Source: Hyphomonadaceae bacterium (GTDB lineage: Bacteria; Pseudomonadota; Alphaproteobacteria; Caulobacterales; Aquidulcibacteraceae). From it: a stretch of DNA of 64,000 nt. The position numbers and the translations under genes were made by a program. The first letter of the stretch is position 1. Every line of letters starts with the position of its first letter. The notes below the pieces were generated by a model. The model was not told where the DNA came from and ran no database searches. It worked only from the letters and a program-made list of their open reading frames with translations. The stretch lies in NCBI GenBank assembly GCA_022841905.1, contig JALHQO010000003.1, positions 232,236 through 296,235 of the forward strand, in the 5' to 3' direction. Positions 6,113-24,330 of this stretch are shown piece by piece.

Positions 6113-7924
6113 TCAAGCACGGCAGCGGCGGATACGGTGTGCGCCAAAGCGCGCCGCGACGGCGCGGTCACTGATGAGGGCGTCGCGCATCATGCGCGCC
6201 GCTTCAGCGGGGCGGCCGAGGCATTCGAGCACGACGCCTTGCGCATATTGGTGAAGCGCCCTTTGTGCGGCGTCTGAGGCGTTATCGGCGCCGATCGCTT
6301 CATTGAGGTAAGTGGACGCTGTAGCCAAGCGCTCCTGCTCTTCGGTGCTTGTGCGCGCGGCCGCCAAGGCCCAGCGCAGCTGCAGCAGACCCATCGCGCC
6401 CAATGTGTAGCCGAGATCGGCGCGTTCACCGTTTATGCGGGCAAGGGCGATAGCGTCCTGGCATGCGCCTTCCGCTGCTGCCCATTGGCCGCCGCCGACG
6501 GTGCGGGCAAGGCAGCGGCTGGCGATGATGCGCGCCCGGTTCGGCTGCAGCGCAGCTGCCCGATCAGCAAATCCAACGGCGCGCAGAGCGGTCTGACGGG
6601 CATCGGCGCCAGGCTCGTCGATCAGACCCCAGGTGGCGCGCGCACGCATGGTCAACGCATCGGCCGTCAACGCAGCGCCATCTGCCCCGGGCGAGAAATA
6701 TCCGCCTTCAGCCAGGGTCACTGCTTGTGCGAAGCTCTGCTCGGCGCGGGCGTAATCGGCGGCGTTGAGATAGATGAGCCCACGCCGATAATGGATGTCG
6801 AACGATTGTCCTCCGCCTTGATGCAAGGACGCATCGTAATCACGCATGGCCCGTTCGGGATCGCCCAATTGGGCATGCAGATCGCCGCGCAGCCGAAGAA
6901 GATAGGCGCTGTTTGGATCGGCGCGCAGGGCGCTGTCTAGATCAGCAATAGCGCGTTGCAGACGGGATGGGTGCTCCGCAAAGACTGCCGCGCGTCCTGT
7001 GAGTGCGGCAATGTTGCGGCTGTCGAGACCGAGTGCGGCCTCATAGTCGCGTCCCGCCTCGGCCAGATCGGAGGCCCCGCCCAAGCGTCGGTAACGCGCC
7101 ACCAAAAGGTCGCCGCGCCCCGTCAACGCGCGCGCACGCAGTGCGCGCATGGCGCCGCTTTCGCTGTGCGGGAGGAGTGCTAACGCATCGCCATAGGCGC
7201 CAAGTGCTGCAGCAAAGTCGCCGCCGCTCGGTTGGCGCCCGGCCCGTAGACGCAATGCATCGGCAAAGGCGAGGAGTGCGCTCGCTGAAGCCCGGTCGAC
7301 GTCGCGAGCGCGCTCAAATTCTTGGATGGCGGCGTCCAATGCGCCCCCGCCAAGGCGGGCGTGGCCGGCGCCGACCAAGGCGCGGGATCGTTGTTCATTA
7401 TTGGCGGCGTTTGCAAAGGCGCGCGTATAGGCGTCCAGGGCTGGCGCCCAATTGCGGCGCTCGCGTTCGGCGTCGCCCAGCGTGAGGCCGATCTCGAACA
7501 GCACTGCACGGTCGCCGCTGGCCAGACGCTCCGCTTCGGTCAAAATCGCCACCGCCTCCGGCGCGTTGAGGCGAAGCTGAACCCGGCCAAGCGCCAGATA
7601 AGTGCGGGCGCTCGCGTCGCCCAGTTCGACGGCGCGTAGCAGATCGTTGAGTGCGCCGGTCAAGTCACCCCGGTCACTGCGCAGGCCGCCGCGCACGCTG
7701 AGCGCGCGCCGTACTTCAGAGATTGAGGCGCCCGCGTCGCCGATCACTTGACTGCACGCGGTCAGCGCCCGCTCGACGTGGCGCGGATTGTCGTCGGCGC
7801 ACCGGCGCATTGAAAAAAAGCCGCCGCCAGCCTGGGCCGGCTGCGCCGCCGCCAGCATCAAGGCGGGCGCAGCGCCGAGCAGCAGCATCACAATCCTTGA
7901 GCGACGATAAAACGACTTGGTCAT
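6113..7924 (-). CDS. secreted TPR-repeat protein
   Basis: A 603-residue protein with an N-terminal signal peptide (MLLLGAAPALMLAAAQPAQA, cleavage probably after AQA) followed by successive helical TPR-like repeats from about residue 60 to the end (for example RTYLALGRVQLRLNAPEAVA and RRGLIYLNAADYARAEQSF). The ATG at 7924 is chosen because it places the signal peptide at the N-terminus. The open frame continues upstream to 8518 but has no protein-like character there and would overlap the Crp gene. Such TPR proteins act as periplasmic protein-interaction scaffolds. It is coupled to the membrane protein at 5171. Confidence 0.85.
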   Translation of the reverse strand: MTKSFYRRSRIVMLLLGAAPALMLAAAQPAQAGGGFFSMRRCADDNPRHVERALTACSQVIGDAGASISEVRRALSVRGGLRSDRGDLTGALNDLLRAVELGDASARTYLALGRVQLRLNAPEAVAILTEAERLASGDRAVLFEIGLTLGDAERERRNWAPALDAYTRAFANAANNEQRSRALVGAGHARLGGGALDAAIQEFERARDVDRASASALLAFADALRLRAGRQPSGGDFAAALGAYGDALALLPHSESGAMRALRARALTGRGDLLVARYRRLGGASDLAEAGRDYEAALGLDSRNIAALTGRAAVFAEHPSRLQRAIADLDSALRADPNSAYLLRLRGDLHAQLGDPERAMRDYDASLHQGGGQSFDIHYRRGLIYLNAADYARAEQSFAQAVTLAEGGYFSPGADGAALTADALTMRARATWGLIDEPGADARQTALRAVGFADRAAALQPNRARIIASRCLARTVGGGQWAAAEGACQDAIALARINGERADLGYTLGAMGLLQLRWALAAARTSTEEQERLATASTYLNEAIGADNASDAAQRALHQYAQGVVLECLGRPAEAARMMRDALISDRAVAARFGAHRIRRCRA

Positions 7925-8207
7925 GCCACGCTCCTTGCTGGCCAGTGCAACGCGATGGAGCGGAAAATGGGACGCGGCGAGCCGTTGGCGTATGACCCGA
8001 TTGGGGTAAGCGCGCGTGTGCTTTTTCATCCGAGCGGGGGAGGGGGGCTGCGGGCAGCGTCGCGATGGGGAGGACGGCTGGCTCGGTGAAACGAAACCCG
8101 TGCGGCGGCGCTGATTTTGGGGACGCCGCCGCACGGCCCGCAGCCCCGTTGAGCAGATTATCGCCACGCTCTCGTTGGCGTTTCCCGCATTTGGGTGAAG
8201 TCGGGGC

Positions 8208-8942
8208 TCAAAAACGCCAGTCGATGGCGTCGGATGTCGTTTCCCCAGCGCGGCGGCGTACCAGCGTGCGCAACTTTTCCAAATCCAAGATGACGATATC
8301 GCGTTTGTCCTGACGCACAACGCCTTCGCTGGCCAGCAAGCGCAACTCGCGTGTGACCGCCTCGCGTTGAGCACCCACGGCGGCCGCGATCGTCTCATGC
8401 GTAGGCGCGCCGCGGATAGTGACTTTGCCGTCGCCGTCGGTGTCGCCGTTGGCGGCAAGGCGCAACAGTTCCGCGTAAATCCGGAAGCGCACTTCGAGGG
8501 CGGCCAATTCGAATACACGCTCAGTCAGTTGGACCACAATGCGCGAAAGGGCGCTGGCGACCGAGGTGGCGAAACGTGCGTCTTGGTTCATTAGCTGGAG
8601 AAAGGCGTCTTGCGAACACTCGGCAATGAGCCCGTCGGTTTCAGCAATCACGGCGAGTGACCGAGGCGTGTTGGCAAGTGCTGCGATCTCGCCGAAATGG
8701 CTGCCTGCGGAGATTTGCCTGATCGCCACCACCCGTCCGGCCGCCGTCTCTAAACGCGTGCGAAACGCGCCTTCGACGACGAAATAGACCTGCGCCTCCG
8801 AAGACAGATGCGAAACGATCGTCTCGCCTGCCTTGACGTGTTTCCAGGTCAAGACTGCGCCGAGTGCGCCCAGCGCCGCGTCGTCCAATTCGGTCAGCAC
8901 GCGAACGCGCCGCAACAAGGAAAGCGTGTCTTCTAGGCTCAC
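8208..8942 (-). CDS. Crp/Fnr-family transcriptional regulator
   Basis: A 244-residue protein with an N-terminal cyclic-nucleotide-binding beta-roll (residues about 15-130, containing GSHFGEIAALANTPRSLAV, the phosphate-binding-cassette region), a dimerisation helix (ALSRIVVQLTERVFELAALE), and a C-terminal winged HTH with recognition helix around AAAVGAQREAVTRELRLLA. The start is the GTG at 8942, which has AGGAG 7 bases upstream and gives normal family length. An earlier start at 9056 would run to within 3 bases of the divergent LuxR gene and leave no promoter. The protein is a close paralogue of the one at 23470. The phosphate-binding cassette has the FGE...R-S pattern compatible with cyclic nucleotide binding. 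Confidence 0.9.
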   Translation of the reverse strand: MSLEDTLSLLRRVRVLTELDDAALGALGAVLTWKHVKAGETIVSHLSSEAQVYFVVEGAFRTRLETAAGRVVAIRQISAGSHFGEIAALANTPRSLAVIAETDGLIAECSQDAFLQLMNQDARFATSVASALSRIVVQLTERVFELAALEVRFRIYAELLRLAANGDTDGDGKVTIRGAPTHETIAAAVGAQREAVTRELRLLASEGVVRQDKRDIVILDLEKLRTLVRRRAGETTSDAIDWRF

Positions 8943-9058
8943 ACCCAAGCTCCTACTCAATGCTGCGCGTTTTTGTGCGGCGTTGGAAGTGAGCCCGGTG
9001 CGAAATATCACGTATGCGGCCGCCGCTGGTTTTGCTGGGATGATCGCGGGAGGCAATC

Positions 9059-10087
9059 ATGACCAGAGATGCGCGCTTGCTTGGGTTTGAAGCCTGGATG
9101 GACGCCGCCATGAGTGACGCTGGATGGGCCGATGCGCTGCAGAGGAGCCGCGCTCTATTGCGTGCGCGCGGAGCCTCGATCGTCGTCCACGACGCCAACG
9201 CCAGCGTGGTGAGCACCGATTGTGAAGCGCCAGCGGACTTCGTGCGGTATTGTCGCGCGCTGGCGCCGCGTCGTTCCAGCGGGATAAATGACTGCCGAGC
9301 GGACAATCTTGGCCGTGTTGTATGGCTTCGGGTTGAAGGCCGCGCTGAGCGAGCGCTAAGCGATGTGACCTTCGCGGTCCTCGCCGACGAAGCGTTAGAC
9401 CTTATTCTCTTTGCCGAACTCGCCATGGCGGCGGCGCGCGCCGTGGCGGCGCGCGCGCGTCTGGCTTGCACGCAGCAATCGTCGGCGCTGATGACGGCGG
9501 CTTTCGATCACGTCCCCTTTGGCGTCGCCACGGCCGACGCCCAGGGACGCGTCACCAACCTCAATGACGCCTGCCGCACGTTGCTGGCGCGGGCCGATGG
9601 CTTGAGCACGCGTCACGGCAAACTCATGTGCCGCGATCCCAGCGATCAGCGCGCCCTTATGGAGGCCATAGATAAGAGCTTGCGCGGCGAGGGCGCACGC
9701 GTCCTGCGCGCAACCCGCGCCGGCGGCGCCCAACCCTACGTTATTCGTGTGCTCTGTCCGCGCGAGGCAGGCGCCATGCGCGATCAATGCGTGCTGATGA
9801 TTATCGATCCCGACGATCAGCCTTCGCCAGGGGCCGAGATCTGGCGGGTCATGTTTGATCTGACTGAATGCGAACTGATTATTGCCGAGGGGCTCGTGGC
9901 GGGCCGCCGAATCACTGACATCGCCAACGAACGAGGCGTGTCGGTTGAGACGGTGCGAACCCAAACCAAGCGCATGTTCGAACGGCTAAACGTGACCAGC
10001 CAGGTCGAGGCGACCGCGCGTTTGTGTCGGGCTACGCCGTTCCGCGCTGTTGACGCCACAGCGGTGCGGCGTCGCGCGGCGGCGTGA
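9059..10087 (+). CDS. LuxR-type regulator with PAS-like sensory region
   Basis: This 342-residue regulator ends in a LuxR-family HTH (residues about 265-330: FDLTECELIIAEGLVAGRRI, then ANERGVSVETVRTQTKRMFE). In front lies a PAS-like segment (FDHVPFGVATADAQGRVTNL, then NDACRTLLARADGL), and the N-terminal ~130 residues are of unknown fold. It is divergent from the Crp gene, sharing a 116-bp gap with that gene's GTG start. It is clearly homologous to the protein at 18953, which lacks the HTH. The ligand is unknown; no response-regulator receiver domain is present. Confidence 0.85.
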   Translation: MTRDARLLGFEAWMDAAMSDAGWADALQRSRALLRARGASIVVHDANASVVSTDCEAPADFVRYCRALAPRRSSGINDCRADNLGRVVWLRVEGRAERALSDVTFAVLADEALDLILFAELAMAAARAVAARARLACTQQSSALMTAAFDHVPFGVATADAQGRVTNLNDACRTLLARADGLSTRHGKLMCRDPSDQRALMEAIDKSLRGEGARVLRATRAGGAQPYVIRVLCPREAGAMRDQCVLMIIDPDDQPSPGAEIWRVMFDLTECELIIAEGLVAGRRITDIANERGVSVETVRTQTKRMFERLNVTSQVEATARLCRATPFRAVDATAVRRRAAA

Positions 10088-10971: not shown

Positions 10972-11412
10972 ATGCGCCAGGGTGTGCGGATTTCGCGTGG
11001 CCCTCAGCCAGACCCGCCTAAACCGACGCCATTATTCAGAAAACGCACTTCAGGCGCTGTCAAACTGAATTCAGCGGCGTGCCGGTGAAGTGATGCGATG
11101 CGTGCGCGAGTGCGACAAACGCCGCACGTATTCGGTTTTCGAGCGATGCGTTTGCGCCATCGGGCGGCGCCATGCGCCCGCGCTGCTCGGGTGGAGGCGG
11201 CGTGCAAGATTGGCTGGCTCGCGGAGCTTACAGGCCCTTTGCGCCAGTCGCGGACGGATACGCGTCGGCGCCAACCCGGTGACGCGAGGTTGGCGCGCTG
11301 CCCCCGCGCAGGAGACAAGAGATCCGCCAGTGGCTGGTGCGCGTCGCGCGGTGTGGCGCCCCGCGAGGCGCGAAGATATGCAAAAGCTGCGCAAAAACCT
11401 TATCATCAAACC
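10972..11412. other. gap without a confident gene before the TPR-CHAT gene
   Basis: About 440 bases. The TPR-CHAT frame stays open upstream to 11098, but the extra 105 residues are Arg/Ala/Cys-rich and unlike the TPR part, so I treat this as leader DNA. No RNA gene, clear palindrome or promoter consensus was recognised. The last 40 bases are the least GC-rich part and probably contain the promoter. Confidence 0.4.
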
Positions 11413-14400
11413 ATGGCCCGCAGGCTGAACCCAGATCAAGACCTTAGGCGTGCGATCGCGCGCATCGAACACAGCGCCGATATGGCGGAGCGCATGAGCG
11501 CTGTGGAGCGAGCGCTGGCCATTATTGAGCGCCGCGGCGAGGCCAAAGGCTCGATGCTGCATGCAAGTCTCTTGGTGCAACTCGGTCAATTGTTTGGCGA
11601 TCAGCCGGCGCGCGCCGGCGACAGCGGCGACAGGGCGCGCGCCGCAGCACACTTGAAGCGGGCGCTTGCCATGTTTCCGCGGCGGCGCGCCCGCATTGAA
11701 CGCGCCCATGCTCAGATTGTGCTCGCCAATATTTTGAGCGAGGGCGACGAGCGTGATTTTGAACAGGCGATTAGGCTCTATCGCGCCGCATTGCGGTGCT
11801 TGAGGCCCCGCACTGACGCCGAGGATTGGACAACCGCCCAAAGCAATCTGGGCTACTGCCTCGTTCATCGCTTGCGCGGAGACAAAAAGCGAAATCTTGC
11901 GGGCGCGATCAAGGCCTATGAGAGCTTGGCGCGGTTTTATCAGCGGCGCGGTCAACGCCAAGATTGGGCCGCCACCAAGATAAAGCTGGCGATCGCCCTG
12001 TCTGAGTTCGGCGCCGAGCCTGCCGGACAAGAGCGCGCCATAGCTGCGATCGAAGCAGCACTTGGCGTCTTTACACGCCGTGGTGCGCCGATGCGATGGG
12101 CCGAGTGCCAGAATGTCTTAGGCGCGCTTTATTACGAGCGGATCAAAGGCGACCGCAGTGACAATATCGAGCGCGCAATCGCAGCGCTTCAGCGTGCACT
12201 CGCTGTGCGAACCAAAAAAAAGGCCCGCGATGAGTGGCTCGCCAGCATGAATAATCTAGCGCTTGCCTTGTCTGACCGGGTGCGCGGAGGGCGCGCTGAC
12301 AATCTGGAGCGCGCGCTGGCTGCGCTCAATCAGGTCGTCGCCGCCTGTCCCCGCCGTAGTGCGGCGTGGGCCAGAGCACAGGCTAAGCGCGCCATAATCT
12401 TGCTGGAGCGGCCGGGCGGGGTGCGCGCAAGAAATATCGAAAGCGCAATTGGCGCTGGCGAGCGCGCAATTGGGGTCTTTGATCCACGGCGTACGCCTTC
12501 GGAATGGGCTCACGCCACCAACGTGACCGCCAACGCCTATGCCGACCGTGAGCGCGGCGGCCGCAGCCAAAATATTGAGACCGCAATCGCGATGTTTAAG
12601 AGCATACGGGCGCACCTCGATCCGCGCGCCTTTGCGCTCGACTGCGCCACCGCCGACCTCAACCTGTCGGTCATTTATGCAAGTCGGATCGAGGGTGCGC
12701 GGGCTGACAATCTTGAAGCGGCGATTGGTTTTGCCCGGCGCGCTTTGCGTGTGCTGAACCGCCAGGTTGCGCCGCTCGATTGGGCTTCTCTTAACGCTAA
12801 TCTCGGCGGGTTTTACTTTTCGCGGGCGCGCGGCGCGCGACGGGAGAATTTAGAGCGTGCGATTGCGGCGGATGTGGCGGCCTTGCAGGTTTTCACGCGC
12901 GCCGAGCATCCGATCGCTTGGGCCGGGGTGAAAGCCAACCTCGCCAACGCCTTCCGCGATCGCATTGACGGGGATCGTAGAGAAAATCTTGAGTGCGCGT
13001 TGGCCTGCGTTCTGGACGCGCTGGAGGTTCTTGACGCGGAGGCTGCGCCGCTCGATTGGGCCGGCGCACAGCAGATTTTTGCGAGCGTGTTGTTGCATCG
13101 CCAAGGGGAGAACCGGCGCAGCGATCTTGAAGAGGCGATTGGCGCAATTGAGCGGGCGAGCGAGATCTTTGTGCACCACGGCTTGGGGCTTGAATGGGCC
13201 AAGGCGCGCGCAACGTTGGCCACGCTCTATCTGGAGCGCGTCGAGGGCGCGCGCGCCGACAATGTCGAGCGCGCCTTCTTGGCCTCAAGCGAGGCATTGT
13301 CGCGGCTCAGCTCCGAAAATGAGCCCGTCGGCTGGGCCAATGCGATGAGCGACTTGGCCGTGGCGTATTCTGAGCGCAGTCGGGGCGATCGGGCCGATAA
13401 CATCGAGCGAGCGATCACACATATCCGCGGCGCTCTTGCAGTCTTGAGCCGTGATCATACGCCGTTTGAATGGGCGCGCGCCCAGGCCAATCTGGCCACC
13501 TTATTCATCCTGCGCGAGGAGGGCGTTCAAACAGAAAACCTGTCGCGGGCGGTGCGGGCGCTGGGCTATGCCCGCACCGTCATGAGCCGGCGGCGCGCGC
13601 CGGGCGAGTGGGCGCAATTGACGATGAACCTCGCCGTGGCGGTGCAGCGCCTCGACGCCGGTGAAGGCGGCGGGCTCAACGTCTCGATCAGATTGTTCGA
13701 GGAGGCGCTCAGCGTGTTGAGCGCGGTAAGCCATCCCCAAGACTGGGCGATGGCGAAGGTCAACCTTGCCAATGCGCTGCGTTGGCGGGCTGAGACCCAA
13801 GGCGAGGACGACGCCAGGCGCGCCGCCAAGGCGTATCGCGAGGCCTTGACCGTGGTGACGCCGGAGCGTTTTCCCGAGGAGCATGTTCGCGCCGCACGAT
13901 TGTTGGCCACGACGCTCTCGGGCTTGGGCGAATGGGACGACGCCGGGTTAATGTTTGCGCGTGCGCGCGCGGCGGCCTTTTCGCTAATCGGCGTGGGTCT
14001 CCATGCTGGCGAACGCGAGCGCGTGTTGGCCGAAGTCGCAAGGCTCGGTCCTGACAGCGCCTATGCGAAATTGCGGGCAGGAGACGCCATCGGCGCCCTC
14101 ACCGACCTCGAGGCAGGACGAGCACTAGAACTGGCGCTGTGGGGCCGCCTCGGTGAAACGCTCACTGGACGAGACCGTGTCCGCCTGCGCAGGGCAAGAC
14201 GAACAGCGCTCGCCGCCGAGCAAAGTCTGGCGGCTGCGGCGGCGCCCGCGCGCCGGGCGGCGTTGGGCAAACTGATGCGCGCGCAAAATGCGCTGGCGAC
14301 ACTTGCCGGCGCGGCGTCATCGACCGACGGATTGAAGACGCAATTGCGCCAGCTTATTGGCGCCGACACGCTGCTGATCGCGCCAGTGTTGAGCCAGGCT

Positions 14401-15450
14401 GGGGCAGCGGTGTTGCGCGCGCGTTGGCGCGGCAAGCGTCTCATCATCGACAGCGCACCGATCGCTGCGCCCAAACTGCCCACAACCGGAGAGGCGCCAG
14501 CCGCCATGGGCCCCTCAGTGCGTCTGGTCGCGCCCCAAGGGCAAGCGGCCGCAGATCGGGCCTGGCAGATATTCGCCGCCGGCGTGGACGGTGCGGAAAG
14601 TCGGTTGATTGTCATGGCGCCCGGCGCGGAGATCACGACGCCGGCACTTGCTGAAAAAGCCGGCGTAAGCCTGGTCGAGCGGTGTGAGATCACCCACGCG
14701 CCCAGCATGACTGCAGCGTGCAACGCGGCGCGTCGCTGCGCGGTTTCTTTTACACCGAGCCTTGGCGCCATCATCGATCCCGGCGCCAATCTCAGTGGGG
14801 CAATGGTCGAACATAATCTGGCGGCGCATCACTTTGGCGCTCGTCACTGCGCCGGCGCTGTCGGCCAAGGGGCCACCAGAGCCGCGGCGGCCGCGGCCTT
14901 ACGCGACAAATCCTATTGGCTGATCGCCACGCACGGGCGCTTCGATTCAGGTCGCGCGGGTCAGTCGTGGCTGGCGCTGGCGGGTGACGAGCGTCTCTCT
15001 CTCGAAGACGCTCTCTTCCTGCGGCGCCCTAAACATCTTCGGCTTGCCGTGTTGTCGGCATGCGAGAGCGGGGCGCACGATGACCAGCGTCGGCCTGAGG
15101 AATTCGAAGGCTTCGTCAACGCATTCTTGCAATTGGGTGCAGTGGGCGTTGTAGCGGCGAAATGGCCGGTGGACGATGTGGCCGCGGCGTTTGTGATCGG
15201 GCGTTTCTTTGAACACCACCTCGGTGAAGGCGATCGGCCGGCCAAAGCCTTGCAAAAGGCGCAGCTTTGGCTGCGTCAGGCAAGCGTCTATCAATTGCAC
15301 ACAATGATGCGGCGCAGGGCAGCGTCGATGACGCAAGCCCAGAGGCGCGCAGCCCAAGCGGTGCGCCTTCGGCTCGATCGTTATGGCGGCGAGGCAACCC
15401 CATTTTCAGATACGCGCCATTGGGCCGGCTATGCGCTCTACGGCGCTTGA
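11413..15450 (+). CDS. TPR-CHAT protein (caspase-HetF-associated with TPRs)
   Basis: A 1345-residue protein. Residues about 1-900 are a long array of TPR-like units with a recurring signature (G-x-R-A-D-N-x-E-R-A-I followed by an L-x-x-x-x-x-P-x-x-W-A half-repeat), about 17-20 copies. The C-terminal ~300 residues form a CHAT domain with the caspase-like dyad His1174 (IATHGRF) and Cys1217 (LSACESGAHD), followed by GAVGVVAAKWPVDDVAA, the typical CHAT block. CHAT proteases are activated by conformational change in the attached repeats and cleave specific partners. The ATG at 11413 is chosen because the repeats begin directly after it. The gene is followed 55 bases later by the HTH gene at 15506, a possible partner. 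Confidence 0.9.
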   Translation: MARRLNPDQDLRRAIARIEHSADMAERMSAVERALAIIERRGEAKGSMLHASLLVQLGQLFGDQPARAGDSGDRARAAAHLKRALAMFPRRRARIERAHAQIVLANILSEGDERDFEQAIRLYRAALRCLRPRTDAEDWTTAQSNLGYCLVHRLRGDKKRNLAGAIKAYESLARFYQRRGQRQDWAATKIKLAIALSEFGAEPAGQERAIAAIEAALGVFTRRGAPMRWAECQNVLGALYYERIKGDRSDNIERAIAALQRALAVRTKKKARDEWLASMNNLALALSDRVRGGRADNLERALAALNQVVAACPRRSAAWARAQAKRAIILLERPGGVRARNIESAIGAGERAIGVFDPRRTPSEWAHATNVTANAYADRERGGRSQNIETAIAMFKSIRAHLDPRAFALDCATADLNLSVIYASRIEGARADNLEAAIGFARRALRVLNRQVAPLDWASLNANLGGFYFSRARGARRENLERAIAADVAALQVFTRAEHPIAWAGVKANLANAFRDRIDGDRRENLECALACVLDALEVLDAEAAPLDWAGAQQIFASVLLHRQGENRRSDLEEAIGAIERASEIFVHHGLGLEWAKARATLATLYLERVEGARADNVERAFLASSEALSRLSSENEPVGWANAMSDLAVAYSERSRGDRADNIERAITHIRGALAVLSRDHTPFEWARAQANLATLFILREEGVQTENLSRAVRALGYARTVMSRRRAPGEWAQLTMNLAVAVQRLDAGEGGGLNVSIRLFEEALSVLSAVSHPQDWAMAKVNLANALRWRAETQGEDDARRAAKAYREALTVVTPERFPEEHVRAARLLATTLSGLGEWDDAGLMFARARAAAFSLIGVGLHAGERERVLAEVARLGPDSAYAKLRAGDAIGALTDLEAGRALELALWGRLGETLTGRDRVRLRRARRTALAAEQSLAAAAAPARRAALGKLMRAQNALATLAGAASSTDGLKTQLRQLIGADTLLIAPVLSQAGAAVLRARWRGKRLIIDSAPIAAPKLPTTGEAPAAMGPSVRLVAPQGQAAADRAWQIFAAGVDGAESRLIVMAPGAEITTPALAEKAGVSLVERCEITHAPSMTAACNAARRCAVSFTPSLGAIIDPGANLSGAMVEHNLAAHHFGARHCAGAVGQGATRAAAAAALRDKSYWLIATHGRFDSGRAGQSWLALAGDERLSLEDALFLRRPKHLRLAVLSACESGAHDDQRRPEEFEGFVNAFLQLGAVGVVAAKWPVDDVAAAFVIGRFFEHHLGEGDRPAKALQKAQLWLRQASVYQLHTMMRRRAASMTQAQRRAAQAVRLRLDRYGGEATPFSDTRHWAGYALYGA

Positions 15451-16393: not shown

Positions 16394-17905
16394 GTGAGCA
16401 CTGCTCAGTTCGATTTTGAAGACATCGTGGTCGGCGCCGGCGCTGCGGGAAGTTATTGCGCCTATCGCCTGGCGCATGCGGGTCGCGAGCTCGCCCTGTG
16501 CGATTCAACCGGCCGCGTCAGCGGGCGGCTGATGTCGTGGATGCTTCACAATGGCGCCCCGGTTGAACTTGGCGGCTTTTCGCTGAGTGACGCAGATGAA
16601 AACACTTACGGGCTTTGCCGGCGTCTCGAACTTAACCTCCAGCCGCTGACCATGCGGCGCGGACCAAGCGCTTTTCGCGGCCGCCACTTAAGAGCCGCCG
16701 ACCCCCGCGATCTCCCCTACGTATTCGCTTCCGCTGAAACTGGCCGCCACGCTGGCCAACTGGTTCTTGATGCGCTGAACACCGTGCTGCCTACGCTGCC
16801 CGGCTTGTGGCCGCAGCAGGGCAATGATCCTGGCGAAACCGCGCGGTTTTTGCGCACCGCGCGGGTTGATGATCAGCCGCTCTGGCGTTGGGGTCTGTGG
16901 AATTTACTGAGCATAGGCCTCAGCCATGAAGCTTACGAATATGCGCTGGCCTCGTTTGGGAGTGTCGCGGCCCTGCGCAACATTAACGCGGCTGATGCGA
17001 TCTGGACGCTTCTGCGGGAGTGCGCGCCGGGACAAACGCACTTCGTCGTGGAGCAGGGCTTCGAACAACTGCCGAAAGCGCTCGTCGGCGCTGCGGGCGT
17101 GACGCCGCGCTTCTACCACAGGCTTTTACGTGTCGATCGCTTTCGCTCTGGCGTACGCGTCTGGTTCGCTACGCCGCGGGGGCGCGTGTCCTACACCGCC
17201 GAGCGCGTGGTTCTCGCTTTGCCTGCAACGCCGTTGCGTCGGCTTGGGCTGGAGCGTCTCTTCAGCGATGGCGAGCGCTACCTCGCCGATCTCGATGCGG
17301 TCGCGCCTGTCAATGCGTGCAAACTCTTTCTGAGTTTTGAAACGCCTTGGTGGCGGGTTGAGCCGTTAGACTCAAAAGCAGTGCTCGCGGGCTTCACTGA
17401 CCAGCCGATGCGCCAATGTTACGCCTTCGAGCCTCAGGCCGGCGACGATGGCGCCGTGATGATGGCGGTTTATGCCGATGATGCGGCGGCGACGTTTTGG
17501 AGCGGTCTGGCGCAGCCGAGAGGAGAGACGCGCGAAGGCTTGGGCCGCGACGATGGGTGCACGCGCCCCACGGTGCTGATGATCGATGCCGCGCGCCGGC
17601 AACTGAACGCTTTATTCCCGCATACGCCCGCGCCGGCGCCGGTGGACGGCGTCTTCATTGATTGGTCGCGCCAACCTTCGGGCGCGGCGTGGCACGCATG
17701 GAAAACGGGCGTGCGCAGCTGGGATGTGCGCGAGCGCATGCGTCAGCCCGATCCCCATTTGCCCTTGTTCATCTGCGGTGAGGCGTTCGCCGAAACGCAA
17801 GGATGGTGCGAGGGCGCATTGAATAACGCCGAAGCAATGCTCGAACGCCATTTCGGCGTGAAGCGGCCCGATTGGGTTGGCTCAACATACGTGTTCGAGC
17901 GCTAA
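16394..17905 (+). CDS. FAD-dependent amine oxidase-like oxidoreductase (borosin locus)
   Basis: A 503-residue flavoprotein. The N-terminal Rossmann motif is VVGAGAAGSYCAYRLAHAG, followed by the second family block (GRVSGRLMSW) and, near the C-terminus, FICGEAFAETQGWCEGALNN, the typical FAD-binding C-terminal signature of the monoamine oxidase/flavin-containing amine oxidase superfamily. It has no signal peptide, so it acts in the cytosol. The GTG at 16394 follows GGAG by 7 bases. The stop overlaps the start region of the precursor gene, so the three genes form one operon. In this context it may oxidise the methylated peptide, but the substrate is unknown. Confidence 0.8.
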   Translation: MSTAQFDFEDIVVGAGAAGSYCAYRLAHAGRELALCDSTGRVSGRLMSWMLHNGAPVELGGFSLSDADENTYGLCRRLELNLQPLTMRRGPSAFRGRHLRAADPRDLPYVFASAETGRHAGQLVLDALNTVLPTLPGLWPQQGNDPGETARFLRTARVDDQPLWRWGLWNLLSIGLSHEAYEYALASFGSVAALRNINAADAIWTLLRECAPGQTHFVVEQGFEQLPKALVGAAGVTPRFYHRLLRVDRFRSGVRVWFATPRGRVSYTAERVVLALPATPLRRLGLERLFSDGERYLADLDAVAPVNACKLFLSFETPWWRVEPLDSKAVLAGFTDQPMRQCYAFEPQAGDDGAVMMAVYADDAAATFWSGLAQPRGETREGLGRDDGCTRPTVLMIDAARRQLNALFPHTPAPAPVDGVFIDWSRQPSGAAWHAWKTGVRSWDVRERMRQPDPHLPLFICGEAFAETQGWCEGALNNAEAMLERHFGVKRPDWVGSTYVFER

Positions 17906-17916
17906 TGGAGAACGAG

Positions 17917-18138
17917 ATGAAAAACAGTGTCACCAACTATCTCACGCGCTTGGGCGAGAATCCGCGTCTGCGACTGACCTTCGCCCGCGACCCCAACGCA
18001 ACGATGAGCCCAGCTTCGCTCAGCGGACCTGAGCGCGCTGCGCTCACCTCAGGCGATGCCTCGGCGATCTATCGCGCGGCGGGCGTTAATGAACGCCCGG
18101 CGCCGAAGATCATTCAAATCCCGGCCCTGCCGGCGTGA
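17917..18138 (+). CDS. candidate split-borosin precursor peptide
   Basis: A 73-residue peptide with two parts. Residues 1-58 form a helical leader ending in a LigA-like motif (LSGPERAALTSGDASAIYRA), the kind of domain that binds borosin methyltransferases in split systems such as Shewanella SonA. A short hydrophobic, Pro-containing C-terminus, NERPAPKIIQIPALPA, is the likely core. The ATG at 17917 is chosen because GGAG (17907-17910) sits 6 bases before it. An upstream ATG at 17905, overlapping the oxidase stop, would add four residues. The methyltransferase gene follows 63 bases later. The family assignment is inferred from sequence pattern and context. Confidence 0.8.
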   Translation: MKNSVTNYLTRLGENPRLRLTFARDPNATMSPASLSGPERAALTSGDASAIYRAAGVNERPAPKIIQIPALPA

Positions 18139-18143
18139 TGGTC

Positions 18144-18171
18144 AACCGGCGCGCGCACGCGCGCGCCGGTT
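18144..18171 (+). terminator. strong hairpin between precursor and methyltransferase
   Basis: A perfect 12-bp stem (AACCGGCGCGCG / CGCGCGCCGGTT) with a four-base loop lies 6 bases after the precursor stop and 30 before the methyltransferase start. No long T-run follows, so it may be a partial terminator or an RNA-stability element. It would let the precursor be made in excess of the enzyme, a common RiPP arrangement. Confidence 0.6.
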
Positions 18172-18201
18172 CTTCGTTCAACATCCAGCAAGGAGCAGTT
18201 T

Positions 18202-18933
18202 ATGCAAAGAGGCTCATTGATCGTCGCCAGCGCTGGGATCGGCATTGGCCAGTGCACAGTCGAGGCGCGCAGCGCCATTGAGGACGCTGATATCGTGCTG
18301 AGCGTGATGGGTGACCCATTCTTGCAGCAATGGGTCGCCGCGCTAAACCCCAAAACGCGCTCGTTACAGAGCCATTATGGGAGCCAACCCAATCGTCGCG
18401 CGGCATATTCGGCGATGGTGGATGAGATTCTCGTCCATGTCCGCGCGGGCCTCAATGTATGCGCGGTGTTTTATGGCCATGCTGGCGTCTACGTGACGCC
18501 CTCGCATGAGGCGATCGCGCAGGCGCGCGCCGAGGGGTTTGACGCCATCATGCTGCCGGGGGTGTCGGCTGATGCTTGCCTTGTGGCCGATCTCGGTGTC
18601 GACCCGGGCGCGCATGGGTTTCAAAGCTACGAGGCGCACGCCTTCTTTCGCCGTCGGCCCCGCTTCGACACGTCCGCCGCGCTGGTGCTCTGGCAGCTCG
18701 CTGTGTTGGGCGATGACGCCTTCACCCGACTGGAGCCCGATTACGAAGCCGTGGCGGCGTTGGCGACGCTTTTGTGTGAGCACTACCCGGTTGACCACCG
18801 GGTTGCGATCTATGCCGCGTCCACGCTGCCTGTGCTGACGGCGAGCGTGCAGCAAACTGAGCTTGCTTTGCTTGCCACAGCGCGGATCGATCAGTCCTCC
18901 ACCCTGTACGTGCCGGCGCTAGCTTTAGGTTAG
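18202..18933 (+). CDS. borosin-type peptide backbone alpha-N-methyltransferase (split)
   Basis: A 243-residue SAM-dependent methyltransferase of the tetrapyrrole-methylase fold, matching the borosin family. It opens with SLIVASAGIGIGQCTVEARS. The catalytic region holds Tyr59, Arg65/66 and Tyr69 (LQSHYGSQPNRRAAYSAMVD). The SAM-binding block is VCAVFYGHAGVYVTPSHEAI, followed by MLPGVSADACLVADLGVDPG and a C-terminal STLYVPALALG. Fused fungal OphMA carries its core on its own C-terminus; this one stops after the catalytic domain, so the substrate must be separate, as in Shewanella SonM/SonA. AAGGAG precedes the ATG. I am confident of the family; activity on the 17917 peptide is inferred. Confidence 0.9.
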   Translation: MQRGSLIVASAGIGIGQCTVEARSAIEDADIVLSVMGDPFLQQWVAALNPKTRSLQSHYGSQPNRRAAYSAMVDEILVHVRAGLNVCAVFYGHAGVYVTPSHEAIAQARAEGFDAIMLPGVSADACLVADLGVDPGAHGFQSYEAHAFFRRRPRFDTSAALVLWQLAVLGDDAFTRLEPDYEAVAALATLLCEHYPVDHRVAIYAASTLPVLTASVQQTELALLATARIDQSSTLYVPALALG

Positions 18934-18952: not shown

Positions 18953-19807
18953 CTATGAGGAGGGCGGAGCGATCAGCCGCTTGGCGAGATGAAGTTCGGC
19001 TTCACTGAGATCAAACGTTGAGCGCCAAGGCGCGCTGGTTAAACCAGCCGCGTCGCTATCGATTACGACCATGAGGCAATTGGGTCGTAAAGCGCCTGGC
19101 GGGCTAGGCGCAAACCAAGTGAGGCACGCGCCCTCGCTACGCTCGCGCGCGATGCGCACAAACGATCGGCGGCGCTCGCCGCGAAAGGCCCCGCTGAGCG
19201 CCTTGGCGAAGCTGCGGCGGTCACGGTCGCGTGGACAGCTGAGCCGCCCATCGTTCACGGTCAGCCCATCGCCGCGCGCTAATATGCGCTGACACGCGCG
19301 GTTGGCGTTTTCGATACGCCCCTCTGGACTGATGAGCGCCACGCCAATGCTGAGCGCCTCAAGAGCTTCGTTGGCAAGCGTTGCGCGCTGTTCCGCTTGT
19401 GTCAGATGCAAACGTATGGCCGCGGCTTCCGCACTGGCCTGCGCATTGGCGCGCAACGCACTTTCGTCGATGAGCTGATCGGCGAGACAGATGATCCATG
19501 CGCGGCTTTGCGCGCCAGCGTCAGCCCTGGCCCAAAAAACCTGAAACGCCGGATCGGAAGCGGGCAGGGCGCCGTACGTGCAATCGTGCGCCGCACTGAT
19601 CGTATTCCACCAGACGAACAGGCCGGGATCACCGCACCAATGGGGAGCTGATTGACGGTCGCGAGGGGCGCGATCTTCGAGTGCAAGGGCGAGGGTGCGA
19701 GCGCCGAGCTTGCGGCCACTCGCTTCAAGCGCGCTTTTCCAACCTCGACCGGCAAGGGCCGCTTCGGTCCAGCATCCGGTTGCAGCTTCTGAGCGAACGG
19801 GCCCCAT
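18953..19807 (-). CDS. PAS-like regulator paralogue truncated before its LuxR HTH
   Basis: A 284-residue protein homologous along its length to residues about 1-285 of the LuxR-type regulator at 9059 (shared blocks: ILARGDGLTVNDGRLSC and WRSTFDLSEAELHLAKRLIA). The paralogue continues into its DNA-binding HTH. This one ends abruptly with IAPPSS and a stop, 20 bases from the borosin methyltransferase stop. No HTH-like sequence follows in any frame, because the methyltransferase coding region occupies that DNA. It therefore looks like a gene cut by insertion of the borosin cassette, or a deliberately HTH-less variant. It is divergent from the cyclase at 19923, with a CRP-like box in between. Confidence 0.75.
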   Translation of the reverse strand: MGPVRSEAATGCWTEAALAGRGWKSALEASGRKLGARTLALALEDRAPRDRQSAPHWCGDPGLFVWWNTISAAHDCTYGALPASDPAFQVFWARADAGAQSRAWIICLADQLIDESALRANAQASAEAAAIRLHLTQAEQRATLANEALEALSIGVALISPEGRIENANRACQRILARGDGLTVNDGRLSCPRDRDRRSFAKALSGAFRGERRRSFVRIARERSEGACLTWFAPSPPGALRPNCLMVVIDSDAAGLTSAPWRSTFDLSEAELHLAKRLIAPPSS

Positions 19808-19858: not shown

Positions 19859-19922
19859 AGGTTCGGCCCCGGCTCGGTGCGCCGCCTTGGCGCCTGTTCA
19901 GCTACTGATTACGCTTAAGCCC

Positions 19923-22601
19923 ATGCACGCCGCTTACCTCTACACTGACGTCGAGGACAGCACGCCGCGTTGGGAGAAAAAGCCCGCCGCGATGCGGGCG
20001 GCGATGGCGCGCCACAAGGCTTTGATCAAAGCGTGTGTGAACCGTCATGGCGGGCGCGTTCACGACGCGGTCGCCGATAGCGTTTTCGCGATTTTTCCCG
20101 AGGGTGAGCCGCTCGCCTGCGCGCTCGACATTCAGATGGCCCTGCAAGAGCAAGACTGGGCCGACGTCGGCGGCTTGTCCGTGCGTATCGGCGTTCATGT
20201 GGGGCCGATGGAGGCCGACGAGCAGCCCGACGAAGTAACGGCCAATCGCACCGAGCGCATAACCTCTTGCGCTTGGGGCGGCCAGATCGTGGTGAGCGCC
20301 GACGCATACGCGATGTTGGCGCCGCCGCGTGGCGCTTCGTTCGCGAGCTTGGGCGCGTGCCGGCTGCGCGGCGTGTTGGGCGCCATCCGGCTGTTCGGCC
20401 TGACGCACCCGCTGTTGAACCGCACAGAGTTTCCCCCGCCGCGCGTCGCCGACTTTGATGGATCGCCGCCGCCAGCGCGAAACGGACCACTCTATGGCCG
20501 CGAGCGGGAGCTCGATGACATTTGTGCGCTGGTGATGGATGTCTCTGTGCGGCATGTTACAATCGTGGGAGCAGGCGGCAACGGCAAGACGCGTTTGGCG
20601 ACCGAAGTTGCGCATCGCCTCGGCGATGAATTTGCGATCATTTATGTCGCGCTTGACCCGAATGAACGGGAGAGCTTGTTCCTGGCGCTGGCGCGCGTCT
20701 TGACCTTTCCCTTCGACGCGACAAGCCCCCACCAAGAACAGCTGATCGACTATCTTCGCGAAAAGCGAGGTCTTCTCATTATCGACAATGCCGAATCCGC
20801 AAAAGACGGCGAGGGCTTCCTCGATCGTCTGATTGTCGCCGCGCCTGAGATTAAAGTGCTCGCGGCGGGACGCGCGCCACTGCAGAGTCAGTGTGAGCGC
20901 CTCTACCAACTTGGCGGCTTGCAGTGGGCAGGCGCCGATCCCGAGGCGGTGCGACGCTCGGCGGCGTTTGCGTTTTTTGCGCAAGAAGCGGAGCGCTTCG
21001 GCGGCGACGTGACCCTCGACGACGGCGCAGCCGCAGCGTTCCAGGCCATTTGCGAACAGGTGCGGGGATCGCCATTGGCGCTGCAGCTTGCGGCGCGCTG
21101 GAGGCGCATGTTGTCGATTCAAGACATTCTTGCGCGCCTGCAAAACGGCATGCGTTTTCTGGCTGAGGCGCCGCATCCCGGCGCCGGTGACGATGCCTTG
21201 CGCCAAGTCTTCGAGACCTCTTGGACCTTGCTCTCAACCCCAATGCAGGACGCGCTGGCGCGATTATCAGTTTTTCACGATGGCTTTGAGGCCGATGTTG
21301 CCGACCGGGTCGCGCAATGTCCGCTCAGCGTGCTTGGAGAACTGGAACTGCGCGGTCTCGTCGAGAAGCGCAGCATGCGGCGTTTTAGTCTGCATCCGCT
21401 CATCTGTGAGTATGCCCGCGAACGCCTTGATGACCGGGCGTTCGCCGCCGCAACGCGCTTGCAGCATTGTCGCCATTATCTTGAAGTGCTGAGCTCGGAC
21501 GCGAACTTCGCCGCCGTATTGAACGCGGTGGAGCATGATAACGCTAATCTGAAGGCGGCTTGGGCCTACGCTGTAGCGATCGACGACGATGGGCTCGTTC
21601 GCAGCGCCATTGAGCCGCTCTTTTACGGCGCGGTCATGCGTTCGCGCTACGCAGACGCTCTGCAAATCCTCGCCGTCAGGCCGGAGCGAGGAGAGCTACA
21701 GTATTACTGCCGCGCGCTCGCTTCGAATTGTCTTGTTCACATCGGCGAGGTCGCCAGCGCTCGCGTCGAGGCGGAGGCCGTTCTTGCCGGGGCGCATGAG
21801 CCGCTGGCCCGTGCGCACGCCCACCAGGCGCTCGGCAACATTGAGCACCTTCGCCACGCGTTTGAGGCGGCTTCACGCCATTATGAGGCCGCGCTCGCCC
21901 TGCGGGCCCGTGAAGCAGACAATGTGGGGCAGTTTTACACTTACCTCTCGCTGGCTGCGCTTTATGTCCTGTCCGGCGAGCATGCGCGCGCGCGGGCGCT
22001 GCTCAAGATCGGTCATCGTATCGCCTTGCGCGTCGGCCTCAAGGCGGGCCTTATTAACGTTCATCTCGTGTCCGGCGATCTTGCAGTAGCCGAAGGCCGC
22101 CTTGAAGACGCGCGAGGTAATTACCTTGAGGCCCTCAAGTGTGAGGAGGCCGTGGGTATCCCGCAATTCCGCTGCCGGGCTCTGTCGAAGCTTGGCGCGG
22201 CGCTGAGCCAGATGGGCTCTTACGCCGCTGCGTGCGCTTGCCATCGCGAGGCGCTCGCGATTGCCGAGGCGCGGGGCGATCTGCGGGGCAAGGTGATGGC
22301 GCTGATTGAGGTTGCCCGCAGTGATGCGGGGCTCGGTGACTTTGAAACAGCGCGAGCGGACTTGCTCTTGGCGTGTCGCGATAGTTTGAAGCTGCAATCG
22401 CCCGGCTTGGTCGCCGCCGCTTTGCGACTGCTCGCAGAGGTCGAGCGAGCCGCTGGCAATCTCGCCTTGGCTGAGCGGCTAACCGGTTTGCTCGAAGAGG
22501 AGAGCGGCGAGCAACCGCCGGCGAGCGGCGCTCTAGAGGCGCTGCACGCAGCGGCCGAGGACGTCCTGCTCGAGGCCGAGCATGAGCGCATGGGCCTCTA
22601 A
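19923..22601 (+). CDS. class III cyclase-NB-ARC/AAA ATPase-TPR regulator
   Basis: An 892-residue protein. The N-terminal class III cyclase domain (residues about 1-165) keeps metal-binding Asp in YLYTDVEDST and VADSVFAIFP and the Asn-Arg pair in NRTERITSC. The first motif is less canonical than in the 1189 protein. A P-loop ATPase follows, with Walker A VGAGGNGKTRL near residue 220 and Walker B LLIIDNAE, and GSPLALQLAARW resembling the GLPLAL motif of NB-ARC/STAND ATPases. The C-terminal ~400 residues are TPR-like. The ATG at 19923 is chosen; a TTG at 19887 would add 12 residues without family support. A signal-transducing STAND cyclase is likely. Confidence 0.85.
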   Translation: MHAAYLYTDVEDSTPRWEKKPAAMRAAMARHKALIKACVNRHGGRVHDAVADSVFAIFPEGEPLACALDIQMALQEQDWADVGGLSVRIGVHVGPMEADEQPDEVTANRTERITSCAWGGQIVVSADAYAMLAPPRGASFASLGACRLRGVLGAIRLFGLTHPLLNRTEFPPPRVADFDGSPPPARNGPLYGRERELDDICALVMDVSVRHVTIVGAGGNGKTRLATEVAHRLGDEFAIIYVALDPNERESLFLALARVLTFPFDATSPHQEQLIDYLREKRGLLIIDNAESAKDGEGFLDRLIVAAPEIKVLAAGRAPLQSQCERLYQLGGLQWAGADPEAVRRSAAFAFFAQEAERFGGDVTLDDGAAAAFQAICEQVRGSPLALQLAARWRRMLSIQDILARLQNGMRFLAEAPHPGAGDDALRQVFETSWTLLSTPMQDALARLSVFHDGFEADVADRVAQCPLSVLGELELRGLVEKRSMRRFSLHPLICEYARERLDDRAFAAATRLQHCRHYLEVLSSDANFAAVLNAVEHDNANLKAAWAYAVAIDDDGLVRSAIEPLFYGAVMRSRYADALQILAVRPERGELQYYCRALASNCLVHIGEVASARVEAEAVLAGAHEPLARAHAHQALGNIEHLRHAFEAASRHYEAALALRAREADNVGQFYTYLSLAALYVLSGEHARARALLKIGHRIALRVGLKAGLINVHLVSGDLAVAEGRLEDARGNYLEALKCEEAVGIPQFRCRALSKLGAALSQMGSYAAACACHREALAIAEARGDLRGKVMALIEVARSDAGLGDFETARADLLLACRDSLKLQSPGLVAAALRLLAEVERAAGNLALAERLTGLLEEESGEQPPASGALEALHAAAEDVLLEAEHERMGL

Positions 22602-22609
22602 CGGCGTGC

Positions 22610-23371
22610 TTACGACAACTGAGCGAATGGCTTTGCGCCGGCGGCTGCCGCGTAAAGCGCCTGCAAACGAGCCCGGTCCACCACTTCGATTTCGCCGCGA
22701 TTGACGCGGATGACGAGAGCCTTCTCAAGCCAGGCGAGGTGGCGCGTGACAGCTTCGCGCGAAGCGCCGATCTGGGCGGCGAGCGCATTATGAGTAGGGC
22801 AAGGAAGTGTTGGGGCGCCGGCGTCTGGGCCCGCTAACCGCAACAATTCCCCAATCAGCCGACCGCGCACATCTAGCCCCGCAATTTCGAAGAGGCGCGT
22901 TTGAGCTTGGGTGAGCGCCAAGGATTGCGCCCGAAGCACGGCTGCGGCGAACCTTGGTTCAGTCGCGAGAAGGTCGAGTACAAGCGCGTTTGGCGCCGAC
23001 ACGATTTCGCCCGGCGCTTCGGCGACAAGGCGCACATTGGCGCCCGGGGCAAGCCCCAAGACCGCGCAGCATGCGCCGAAGACATCCCCCGGTCTCAGCG
23101 CGTTCAGGGAGACCACATCGGCCTTGGCCGTGAGTGCAACGATGCGAAACGCGCCGCTGTGCACAAAACCCACATGATGGGTGAAGTGCCGCGCCATCAT
23201 CAATGTGGCGCGCGCGCGAACGTCGTGCACCTTGACCTGATCGCAAAGCGCCAAGAGCGCATGTTCAGAGAGCTCCGCGAGTACGCCGATGGCGCGCAAC
23301 TCCCCGGGCGTCAAACGCGCAGACGGCCTGACCCGTTCGAAAGGCAGCGGAGTGGGTTCGTCTGCTGACAT
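22610..23371 (-). CDS. Crp/Fnr-family regulator
   Basis: A 253-residue protein with a degenerate effector domain (residues about 25-145; the usual phosphate cassette reads PGDVFGACCAVLGLAPGANV, lacking the Glu-Arg pair of CRP) and a clear winged HTH (CPTHNALAAQIGASREAVTR). It resembles regulators that sense something other than cAMP. It is convergent with the cyclase gene, 8 bases between stops. A perfect CRP-type palindrome lies 72 bases upstream of its ATG (23443-23458), so it is probably regulated by a family member or by itself. Confidence 0.88.
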   Translation of the reverse strand: MSADEPTPLPFERVRPSARLTPGELRAIGVLAELSEHALLALCDQVKVHDVRARATLMMARHFTHHVGFVHSGAFRIVALTAKADVVSLNALRPGDVFGACCAVLGLAPGANVRLVAEAPGEIVSAPNALVLDLLATEPRFAAAVLRAQSLALTQAQTRLFEIAGLDVRGRLIGELLRLAGPDAGAPTLPCPTHNALAAQIGASREAVTRHLAWLEKALVIRVNRGEIEVVDRARLQALYAAAAGAKPFAQLS

Positions 23372-23469: not shown

Positions 23470-24231
23470 TCATACCTGCCAGTCCAAGTGCTGACTGAGC
23501 GTGGGGCCCGCGCGCGCACGCACCATATCCTCCAGTCGGGTGAGGTTTTTGATCAAGAGTTCGCGCCGTACCTGCGCGATGACGCCTTCGCTGGCCAATT
23601 GATTGAGTTCTCTGGTGACCGATTCACGCTTGGTCCCGATGGCCGCCGCGATTGCTTCATGGGTTGGCGCCTCGGCGATGCGAACCCCCCCGGCGGTTGC
23701 TTGGCCGTCGCGCGCCATGCGCAGTAATTCGGCGTAGAGCCGGAAGCGAATTTCAAGTGCGGCGACTTCGAACAATTTGTCGGTGAGCGACACAACGGTT
23801 CGCGCAAGCCCCGAGGCCACCGCGCTGGCGAAGTCGCCATTAGCGGCCATAGCCGCGCGAAACGCCGCGCCTGGACATTCGGCCAGCAGGCCGGCGGTCT
23901 CTGCGGTGACCGCCACGCTGCGGGGCGTGGCGATCAAGGCTGCGATCTCGCCGAAGTGATCGCCCGCCTGCAGCCGTCGGATTGATACTGAACGACCAAA
24001 GGGCGTCGTCATGCTGAGGGCAAAGCTGCCCTCGGCGATGAAGCACACGCTGTCGCTTTGGCTCAAATGGGCAAACACTTCTTCATCTGCAACGACGCGC
24101 CGCCAGCGCACGGCTTGGCCCAAGGCGTCGCGTTCTGGTTCGGTCAAGTTGGCCAGCAGGCGGATTGCGCCCAGGCGCGCCCGCGCGTCAGCGGGAGCGG
24201 AAAGGTTCGACGATTTGGATTCGCTTGGCAT
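23470..24231 (-). CDS. Crp/Fnr-family regulator, paralogue of the one at 8208
   Basis: A 253-residue protein with a cyclic-nucleotide-binding fold (AGDHFGEIAALIATPRSVAV), a dimer helix (GLARTVVSLTDKLFEVAALE), and a winged HTH (AAAIGTKRESVTRELNQLAS). It is near-identical in layout to the 8208 protein, including the APTHE-AIAAA-IG stretch. The ATG at 24231 is chosen for family length; an open frame continues to 24309 but is unconvincing. It may be activated by cyclic nucleotide made by the neighbouring cyclase. A CRP palindrome lies about 195 bases upstream. Confidence 0.9.
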   Translation of the reverse strand: MPSESKSSNLSAPADARARLGAIRLLANLTEPERDALGQAVRWRRVVADEEVFAHLSQSDSVCFIAEGSFALSMTTPFGRSVSIRRLQAGDHFGEIAALIATPRSVAVTAETAGLLAECPGAAFRAAMAANGDFASAVASGLARTVVSLTDKLFEVAALEIRFRLYAELLRMARDGQATAGGVRIAEAPTHEAIAAAIGTKRESVTRELNQLASEGVIAQVRRELLIKNLTRLEDMVRARAGPTLSQHLDWQV

Positions 24232-24330
24232 GGGATCGCGGACGGGGAGCGGGGTTGATGTAAGTGGCAAGACGGATCGGGCTGCGCCAGTAAATCGCGG
24301 CCACAGCAATTACTTAGCGAAGCGATCGGT

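Follow-up and report, generated by a model that had tools for sequence, protein, structure and literature searches.

Introduction

In split borosin pathways the α-N-methyltransferase and the precursor peptide are separately encoded (PMC8429565). The closest described system is SonM/SonA of Shewanella oneidensis, of type IV, in which neighbouring genes encode a stand-alone methyltransferase and a separate precursor with a LigA-like leader and a hydrophobic C-terminal core (PMC8429565). As of 2021 the final product was not known for any split borosin pathway (PMC8429565). A second reference is given by the fused fungal borosins, represented by OphMA. Here we describe a locus in a 64,000-nucleotide stretch (the window) of contig JALHQO010000003.1, assembly GCA_022841905.1, from a Hyphomonadaceae bacterium, in which the genes of a flavin adenine dinucleotide (FAD)-dependent oxidase, a 73-residue precursor peptide and a borosin methyltransferase follow one another. 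Sequence comparison supports a real split borosin cluster, that is, a cluster for a ribosomally synthesized and post-translationally modified peptide (RiPP). What is new in it is the oxidase, which is a lineage-specific partner of the methyltransferase/precursor pair and makes the locus a variant of split borosins.

The methyltransferase shares with SonM its stand-alone form and the active-site and lock residues, and the precursor, likewise encoded next to it, is of similar length and has the same kind of leader and core. The locus differs from SonM/SonA in that the precursor gene lies before the methyltransferase gene, an oxidase of the L-amino acid oxidase (LAAO) fold comes first, a STAND-cyclase protein belongs to the cluster, and the core is PKIIQIPALPA. 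The methyltransferase domain of OphMA is homologous, but here methyltransferase and precursor are separate proteins, and in one relative it is the oxidase that shares a reading frame with the precursor. The assignment to type IV is made by likeness to SonM/SonA, types V to X lying outside the comparison, and is to be taken as a putative one. Architectures V to X of split borosins are reportedly defined by Imani 2022 and Cho 2022.

The oxidase has the fold, the FAD motifs and the catalytic lysine of L-amino acid, L-arginine and L-lysine oxidases (8jhe, 8jt7, 7eih), from which the oxidases of these clusters differ by the absence of the carboxylate-binding arginine and by their genetic tie to a peptide precursor. 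With the mycofactocin enzyme MftD, an L-lactate dehydrogenase homologue and thus a member of another protein family (PMC7491314), only a functional parallel is proposed, the oxidation of an amine in a RiPP intermediate. An earlier note on this DNA, made from its letters, called a locus with an FAD oxidase as first gene unfamiliar. This agrees with our search, in which none of the titles listed was on a borosin flavin oxidase and which did not extend to the surveys Imani 2022, Cho 2022 and Lee 2024. Neither PMC8429565 nor PMC11395268 uses the word oxidase, and the passages with it in PMC12048977, PMC9505594 and PMC11285071 are unrelated to borosins; absence from print is not claimed.

Methyltransferase and Precursor Peptide

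The earlier note had read the locus as three consecutive genes for a flavin amine oxidase-like enzyme, a precursor-like peptide with a LigA-like leader and a stand-alone borosin-type α-N-methyltransferase. All three are open frames on the forward strand (Table 1), and the first matched Pfam PF01593 with an E value of 8.7e-31. For the methyltransferase the best match in the PDB was SonM (7ltc; E 8.6e-54, 186 bits), and fungal chains of the OphMA type matched with E values of 4e-38 to 3e-34. The three borosin fingerprint motifs quoted in the note are all present in its translation. Among the residues of SonM, Y58 and Y71, which hold the peptide backbone, R67 and W166, the roles of which are also described (PMC8429565), and Y93 were conserved in the alignment of the methyltransferases of the genus (12/12), and the position of F99 was occupied by F or Y in all 12. 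The named records of the genus members are metagenome-assembled genomes of Hyphomonadaceae or Alphaproteobacteria. This homology and the conserved catalytic residues place the enzyme with the stand-alone borosin methyltransferases.

The precursor gene is the immediate neighbour of the methyltransferase gene. Its ATG at 17917 is directly preceded by GGAG, and an alternative form of 77 residues is possible from the ATG at 17905. The leader was weakly recognisable in the window peptide alone, which matched Pfam LigA with E 0.008, under the Pfam cut-off, and SonA with E 0.16-0.28. A profile (A4) was built from 12 precursors, those of the window, of 10 other members of the genus and of the outlying proteobacterium L065 (loci of relatives are designated by L numbers). 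This profile, the window included, matched SonA with E values of 1.9e-14 to 3.7e-14, and 10 of its 12 members had individual LigA matches at E up to 1. It is thus the profile of 12 relatives that reveals the borosin-binding LigA-like leader. The same profile also matched residues 321-373 of OphMA, which we take to be the clasp region, with E about 1e-4; since unrelated designed armadillo proteins score alike (1.3e-4 and 2.6e-4), little weight is given to this likeness. From 274 relatives of the methyltransferase 80 were kept as loci, some of them short. Peptides matching profile A4 were found in 67 of the 80 at E ≤ 0.01 and in 51 at E ≤ 1e-5, several of these loci having themselves supplied members of the profile. 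In its own genome the precursor is present in one clear copy, with three further matches at E 0.2-0.4.

The C-terminal KIIQIPALPA of the precursor is hydrophobic, and the predicted core is PKIIQIPALPA. The residues methylated in SonA are L63 and I65 (PMC8429565), which in an ungapped register counted by hand align with K68 and I70 of the 77-residue form. In loci with the order oxidase-precursor-methyltransferase (layout A) the cores share P-K-[IV]-[IV]: PKIIQIP in the window, PKVVNVP in L013, PKIITVP in L015 and PKIIVVP in L017. The three layout-A peptides of profile A4 other than that of the window nevertheless keep this motif at full-length identities to it of 35, 49 and 35%. Two further loci are counted with this layout. 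A precursor-like gene of L021, located at −240 to −70 from the start of the methyltransferase match, contains two PKIVHA units. Similar words were found in L022, where the reading frame seems broken, as it does in L108.

Genetic Linkage of the Oxidase

Of 61 genomes, the own genome included, 11 matched the methyltransferase and the identical 11 matched the oxidase. In the family set of 60 genomes, at a threshold of E ≤ 1e-15, the identical 11 matched both and 49 matched neither. If the genomes were independent the chance of this co-occurrence would be about 3e-12, a value which serves as a guide only because the genomes are related. The oxidase gene lies upstream on the same strand in all 12 methyltransferase loci found, six of which, including the window, have layout A and six the order oxidase-precursor-STAND-methyltransferase (layout B). 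A thirteenth oxidase place (L112) lies near a contig end; a precursor is located next to it, as is the STAND gene, identified by eye.

The methyltransferase tree had 84 rows. A moderately supported branch (87/69) set off the 13 enzymes linked to an oxidase (12 of the genus and L065), and within these layouts A and B formed subclades supported by 100/90 and 97/81. L065, in which the order is also oxidase-precursor-methyltransferase, was joined to layout A by a long branch and its placement is unsure. The start of the precursor overlaps the 3′ end of the oxidase in a different frame in L018, L019, L020 and L023, and in L016, which shares its contig with L031, a single open frame of 600 residues contains both oxidase and precursor.

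A profile of 12 oxidases, run over the 80 loci, gave strong matches in 10, nine of the same genus and L065, the latter being the only oxidase-bearing locus outside the genus among these 80 of the 274 relatives; since some of the loci are short and 80 were kept, rarer pairings may be missed. Weak matches in L099 (E 1.4e-4) and L086 (4.8e-4) were discarded, the one being a short Rossmann protein and the other HI0933-like. More distant methyltransferases were present in 3 of 384 genomes of the class besides the own one, and no oxidase was found in the 3.6-3.7 kb covered there.

Fold and Active Site of the Oxidase

In the PDB the oxidase of the window matched 8jhe with E 2.8e-47. Its AlphaFold2 model had a predicted local distance difference test (pLDDT) score of 86.6 and a predicted template modelling score of 0.90, and the best Foldseek matches of the model were 8jhe (an ancestral LAAO), 7eih (an ancestral L-lysine oxidase) and 8jt7 (an arginine oxidase). 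We compared 14 oxidases, 12 of them in an alignment and those of L065 and L112 read individually. The FAD-binding motifs were present in the alignment, and the catalytic lysine at the place of K322/K387 was conserved in the 14 proteins. By hand counting K322 falls on this conserved lysine, and the K387A chain has alanine in the same column.

The carboxyl group of the substrate is bound by an arginine, R67 in HTAncLAAO2 (PMC10517122) and R76 in AncLLysO, where the activity of R76A was not detectable (PMC8405998); an arginine has this role also in three amino-acid oxidases compared in PMC9331233. Counted by hand, these residues correspond to the GGMR arginine of 8jhe, 7eih and 8jt7. In the 12 aligned oxidases this column was gapped, and the arginine was absent too in L065 and L112. 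Considering that all 14 enzymes keep the lysine and lack the carboxylate-binding arginine, the oxidase seems capable of catalysis but poorly suited to free amino acids, and the missing arginine suggests that its substrate is a peptide, probably not a free amino acid.

Neighbouring Genes and Other Borosin-Like Loci

The features of the locus are collected in Table 1.

Table 1: Features of the split borosin locus and its downstream neighbours (positions in the window).
Feature	Position	Strand	Remarks
FAD-dependent oxidase, L-amino-acid-oxidase / amine oxidase fold	16394..17905	+	503 aa, GTG start; PF01593
Split-borosin precursor peptide, LigA-like borosin-binding leader	17917..18138	+	73 aa; leader profile vs SonA
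Predicted core PKIIQIPALPA	18103..18135	+	Ungapped SonA register; P-K-[IV]-[IV] in layout-A relatives
Perfect G+C-rich stem-loop, 12 bp	18144..18171	+	Directly 3′ of precursor stop; folding z-scores
Stand-alone borosin α-N-methyltransferase, SonM type	18202..18933	+	243 aa; SonM match, SonM residues kept
PAS-domain protein, PAS-LuxR-like, without helix-turn-helix (HTH) part; possible remnant regulator	18953..19807	-	PAS_4/PAS_8 below Pfam cut-offs
Cyclase-like + STAND ATPase + TPR protein, conserved cluster member	19887..22601	+	904 aa; Pfam
Crp/Fnr-family regulator; cluster link not shown	22610..23371	-	HTH_Crp_2 E 1.1e-11
Second Crp/Fnr-family regulator; cluster link not shown	23470..24309	-	HTH_Crp_2 E 1.8e-14, cNMP_binding 2.8e-13

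The stem-loop behind the precursor gene gave folding z-scores of −2.85 and −2.53. Folding covered five layout-A loci and L065, with L022 and layout B left out. At the equivalent place the stem-loops of the five layout-A loci, the window included, had z-scores of −2.5 to −4.9, and none was found at the precursor end in L065 (z +1.8). The element may set the ratio of precursor to enzyme or guard a 3′ end. A scan for promoters and terminators did not rise above chance, with 0 promoters (0.8 in shuffles) and 4 terminator-like sites (4.4 in shuffles), and the 12-bp stem-loop was not among these 4 sites.

The STAND-cyclase-TPR family is present in 11 of the 12 loci, and in 6 of the 12 its gene separates the precursor from the methyltransferase. 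Its best NCBIfam match was HaaT, a TPR protein that belongs to a cyclophane RiPP pathway; the score of 44.9 bits is far below the cut-off of 1125, and the likeness is therefore taken as generic. A 1052-residue protein at 1189-4347 (+), with SAM, guanylate-cyclase and AAA domains, has partly the same build. Relatives of the PAS protein were detected by tblastn in 7 of 9 same-genus loci. Compared by eye with the PAS-LuxR protein of L112 it ends before the HTH, nor did inspection by eye of the three frames beyond its stop reveal one. At 11098-15450 (+), immediately before the cluster, a protein of 1450 residues carries a C-terminal CHAT (caspase-like) domain. This CHAT-TPR protein and a transglutaminase-like cysteine proteinase at 29384-30391 were considered as possible processing proteases and provisionally dropped, both being absent from the families listed for at least three loci.

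Other arrangements of borosin-like genes were noted among the relatives. Borosin-type precursors with numerous core repeats adjoin borosin methyltransferases in a gammaproteobacterial metagenome-assembled genome (L086, C-terminal part of the frame 7946-9439 (+), DAAIIKGYAP-like cores) and in Solirubrobacter soli (L099, frame 7111-7983 (+), PQILPQIHPQQIFPQVA-like cores). Split-borosin-like methyltransferases occur in archaeal records, namely L043, L050, L082 and L104 (Nitrososphaera, Methanomassiliicoccus and Thermoplasmata metagenome-assembled genomes), with a LigA-like peptide just upstream in L050 (E 1.6e-10), L082 (6e-6) and L104 (0.0017). Two alphaproteobacterial methyltransferases, L025 (frame 1429-3147 (+)) and L026 (frame 1420-3111 (+)), are followed in frame by long stretches of short repeat units (EQHVTEQHE, ELNDAA) and are perhaps fused repeat-core borosins.

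Proposed Pathway and Alternatives

On balance we lean towards a split borosin cluster with a dedicated oxidative maturase that acts on the precursor as the explanation of the whole locus. The LigA-like helical leader of the precursor would dock on the SonM-like methyltransferase and the core would pass through its active site, where the backbone amides of KIIQI would be N-methylated; this stretch is flanked on either side by prolines, which cannot be N-methylated. Strong homology points to this first step. For the second we infer that an amine of this peptide is oxidised by the LAAO-fold flavoenzyme, after or before methylation. The target would be the core lysine, whose side chain would become allysine, or else the N-terminal amine freed by removal of the leader, and the product would be a reactive carbonyl (−1.03 Da). 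The stem-loop would tune the amounts, and the STAND-cyclase, PAS and Crp/Fnr proteins may control expression.

Several observations weigh against this explanation. Of the 80 loci with a borosin methyltransferase, 70 gave no strong oxidase match, so the oxidase is not needed for methylation generally. The fused oxidase-precursor frame is known from one metagenome-assembled contig, and at its junction an ATG with a purine-rich stretch could start the precursor separately. In the model of the fusion, pLDDT was about 50-62 for the precursor helices and below 40 over the final 20 or so residues; because of this low confidence no claim of docking is made. No recognisable LigA domain was found in the precursor-like gene of L021, and L108 gave none. 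The cores are also heterogeneous: L018, L019, L020 and L023 of layout B, together with L112, have CF[VILM]LGLTR, which contains no lysine, the hydrophobic strings of L014 and L016, also of layout B, are different ones, and L065 ends in MNFIIF. The first five of these loci are also those in which the oxidase has an alternative arginine two residues on (5/14), and a shifted contact with a carboxylate is possible there. E383 of AncLLysO binds the lysine side chain (PMC8405998), and by hand-counted placement this position is V, I, M or W in the 14 oxidases. No peptidase or exporter common to the sister loci was identified among the shared families, which are only partly annotated.

Taking into account these cores and the replacement of E383, the reading of the enzyme as a general lysine oxidase is weakened and cannot be the whole story, since the core lysine is not general. 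The core lysine is an attractive target for the oxidase of the window, though not for all relatives, and an N-terminal amine freed by cleavage would fit all cores, several of them being without lysine.

It is unlikely, though not far-fetched, that the borosin pair is real and the oxidase a merely co-regulated free-amino-acid oxidase, making H2O2 or scavenging amino acids. The nearest solved relatives do act on L-amino acids, L-arginine and L-lysine, but the carboxylate-binding arginine is missing throughout the 14 enzymes, none of the 60 family genomes has the oxidase (E ≤ 1e-15) without a borosin methyltransferase, and one oxidase is fused in frame to the precursor. Sarcosine and N-methyltryptophan oxidases act on N-methyl amines, and a branch of the maturase explanation, to which we give an equally low probability, would have the oxidase act after cleavage on an N-methylated N-terminal residue, at its N-methyl amine, yielding an α-keto peptide. 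Such a reaction would be compatible with lysine-bearing and lysine-free cores alike and has a parallel in MftD, which oxidatively deaminates a RiPP intermediate (PMC7491314); it would require, however, a peptidase, and none was identified at the loci.

Still less probable is that the oxidase is chemically idle on the peptide and binds the leader or senses the redox state as a scaffold or regulator of the pathway. The sensor-type proteins of the clusters (STAND-cyclase, PAS, Crp) and the overlap or fusion of the precursor with the 3′ end of the oxidase in some relatives would suit this role, in which, however, the conserved FAD-binding motifs and catalytic lysine would be needless. That the methyltransferase is a conventional precorrin/tetrapyrrole methylase beside an unrelated small gene, the kinship by which the earlier note would have been overturned, can be rejected almost with certainty: the enzyme does share Pfam TP_methylase (E 1.2e-17), but a single precorrin enzyme appeared among its PDB matches (E 4.2e-4), the best precorrin model in NCBIfam reached 16.6 bits (cut-off 246.35) against 186 bits for SonM, and the leader profile matches SonA. 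This question was decided on scores; the methyltransferase tree contained no precorrin enzymes.

Conclusions

With the dedicated maturase as the preferred explanation, we tentatively propose, while giving it somewhat less than an even chance, a subclass of borosins that would combine backbone N-methylation with flavin oxidation of the peptide itself, by an LAAO-derived enzyme that has exchanged amino-acid substrates for peptides. Its N-methylated product would bear an allysine or an α-keto group and would perhaps cyclise by itself, and in one lineage the substrate would have become a C-terminal extension of the oxidase, mirroring the fused fungal borosins. If it is true that an LAAO-fold flavoenzyme has evolved for a peptide, RiPP maturases would gain a new kind, with possible use as a biocatalyst, and this can be tested within the genus on 12 natural sets of oxidase, precursor and methyltransferase with differing cores.

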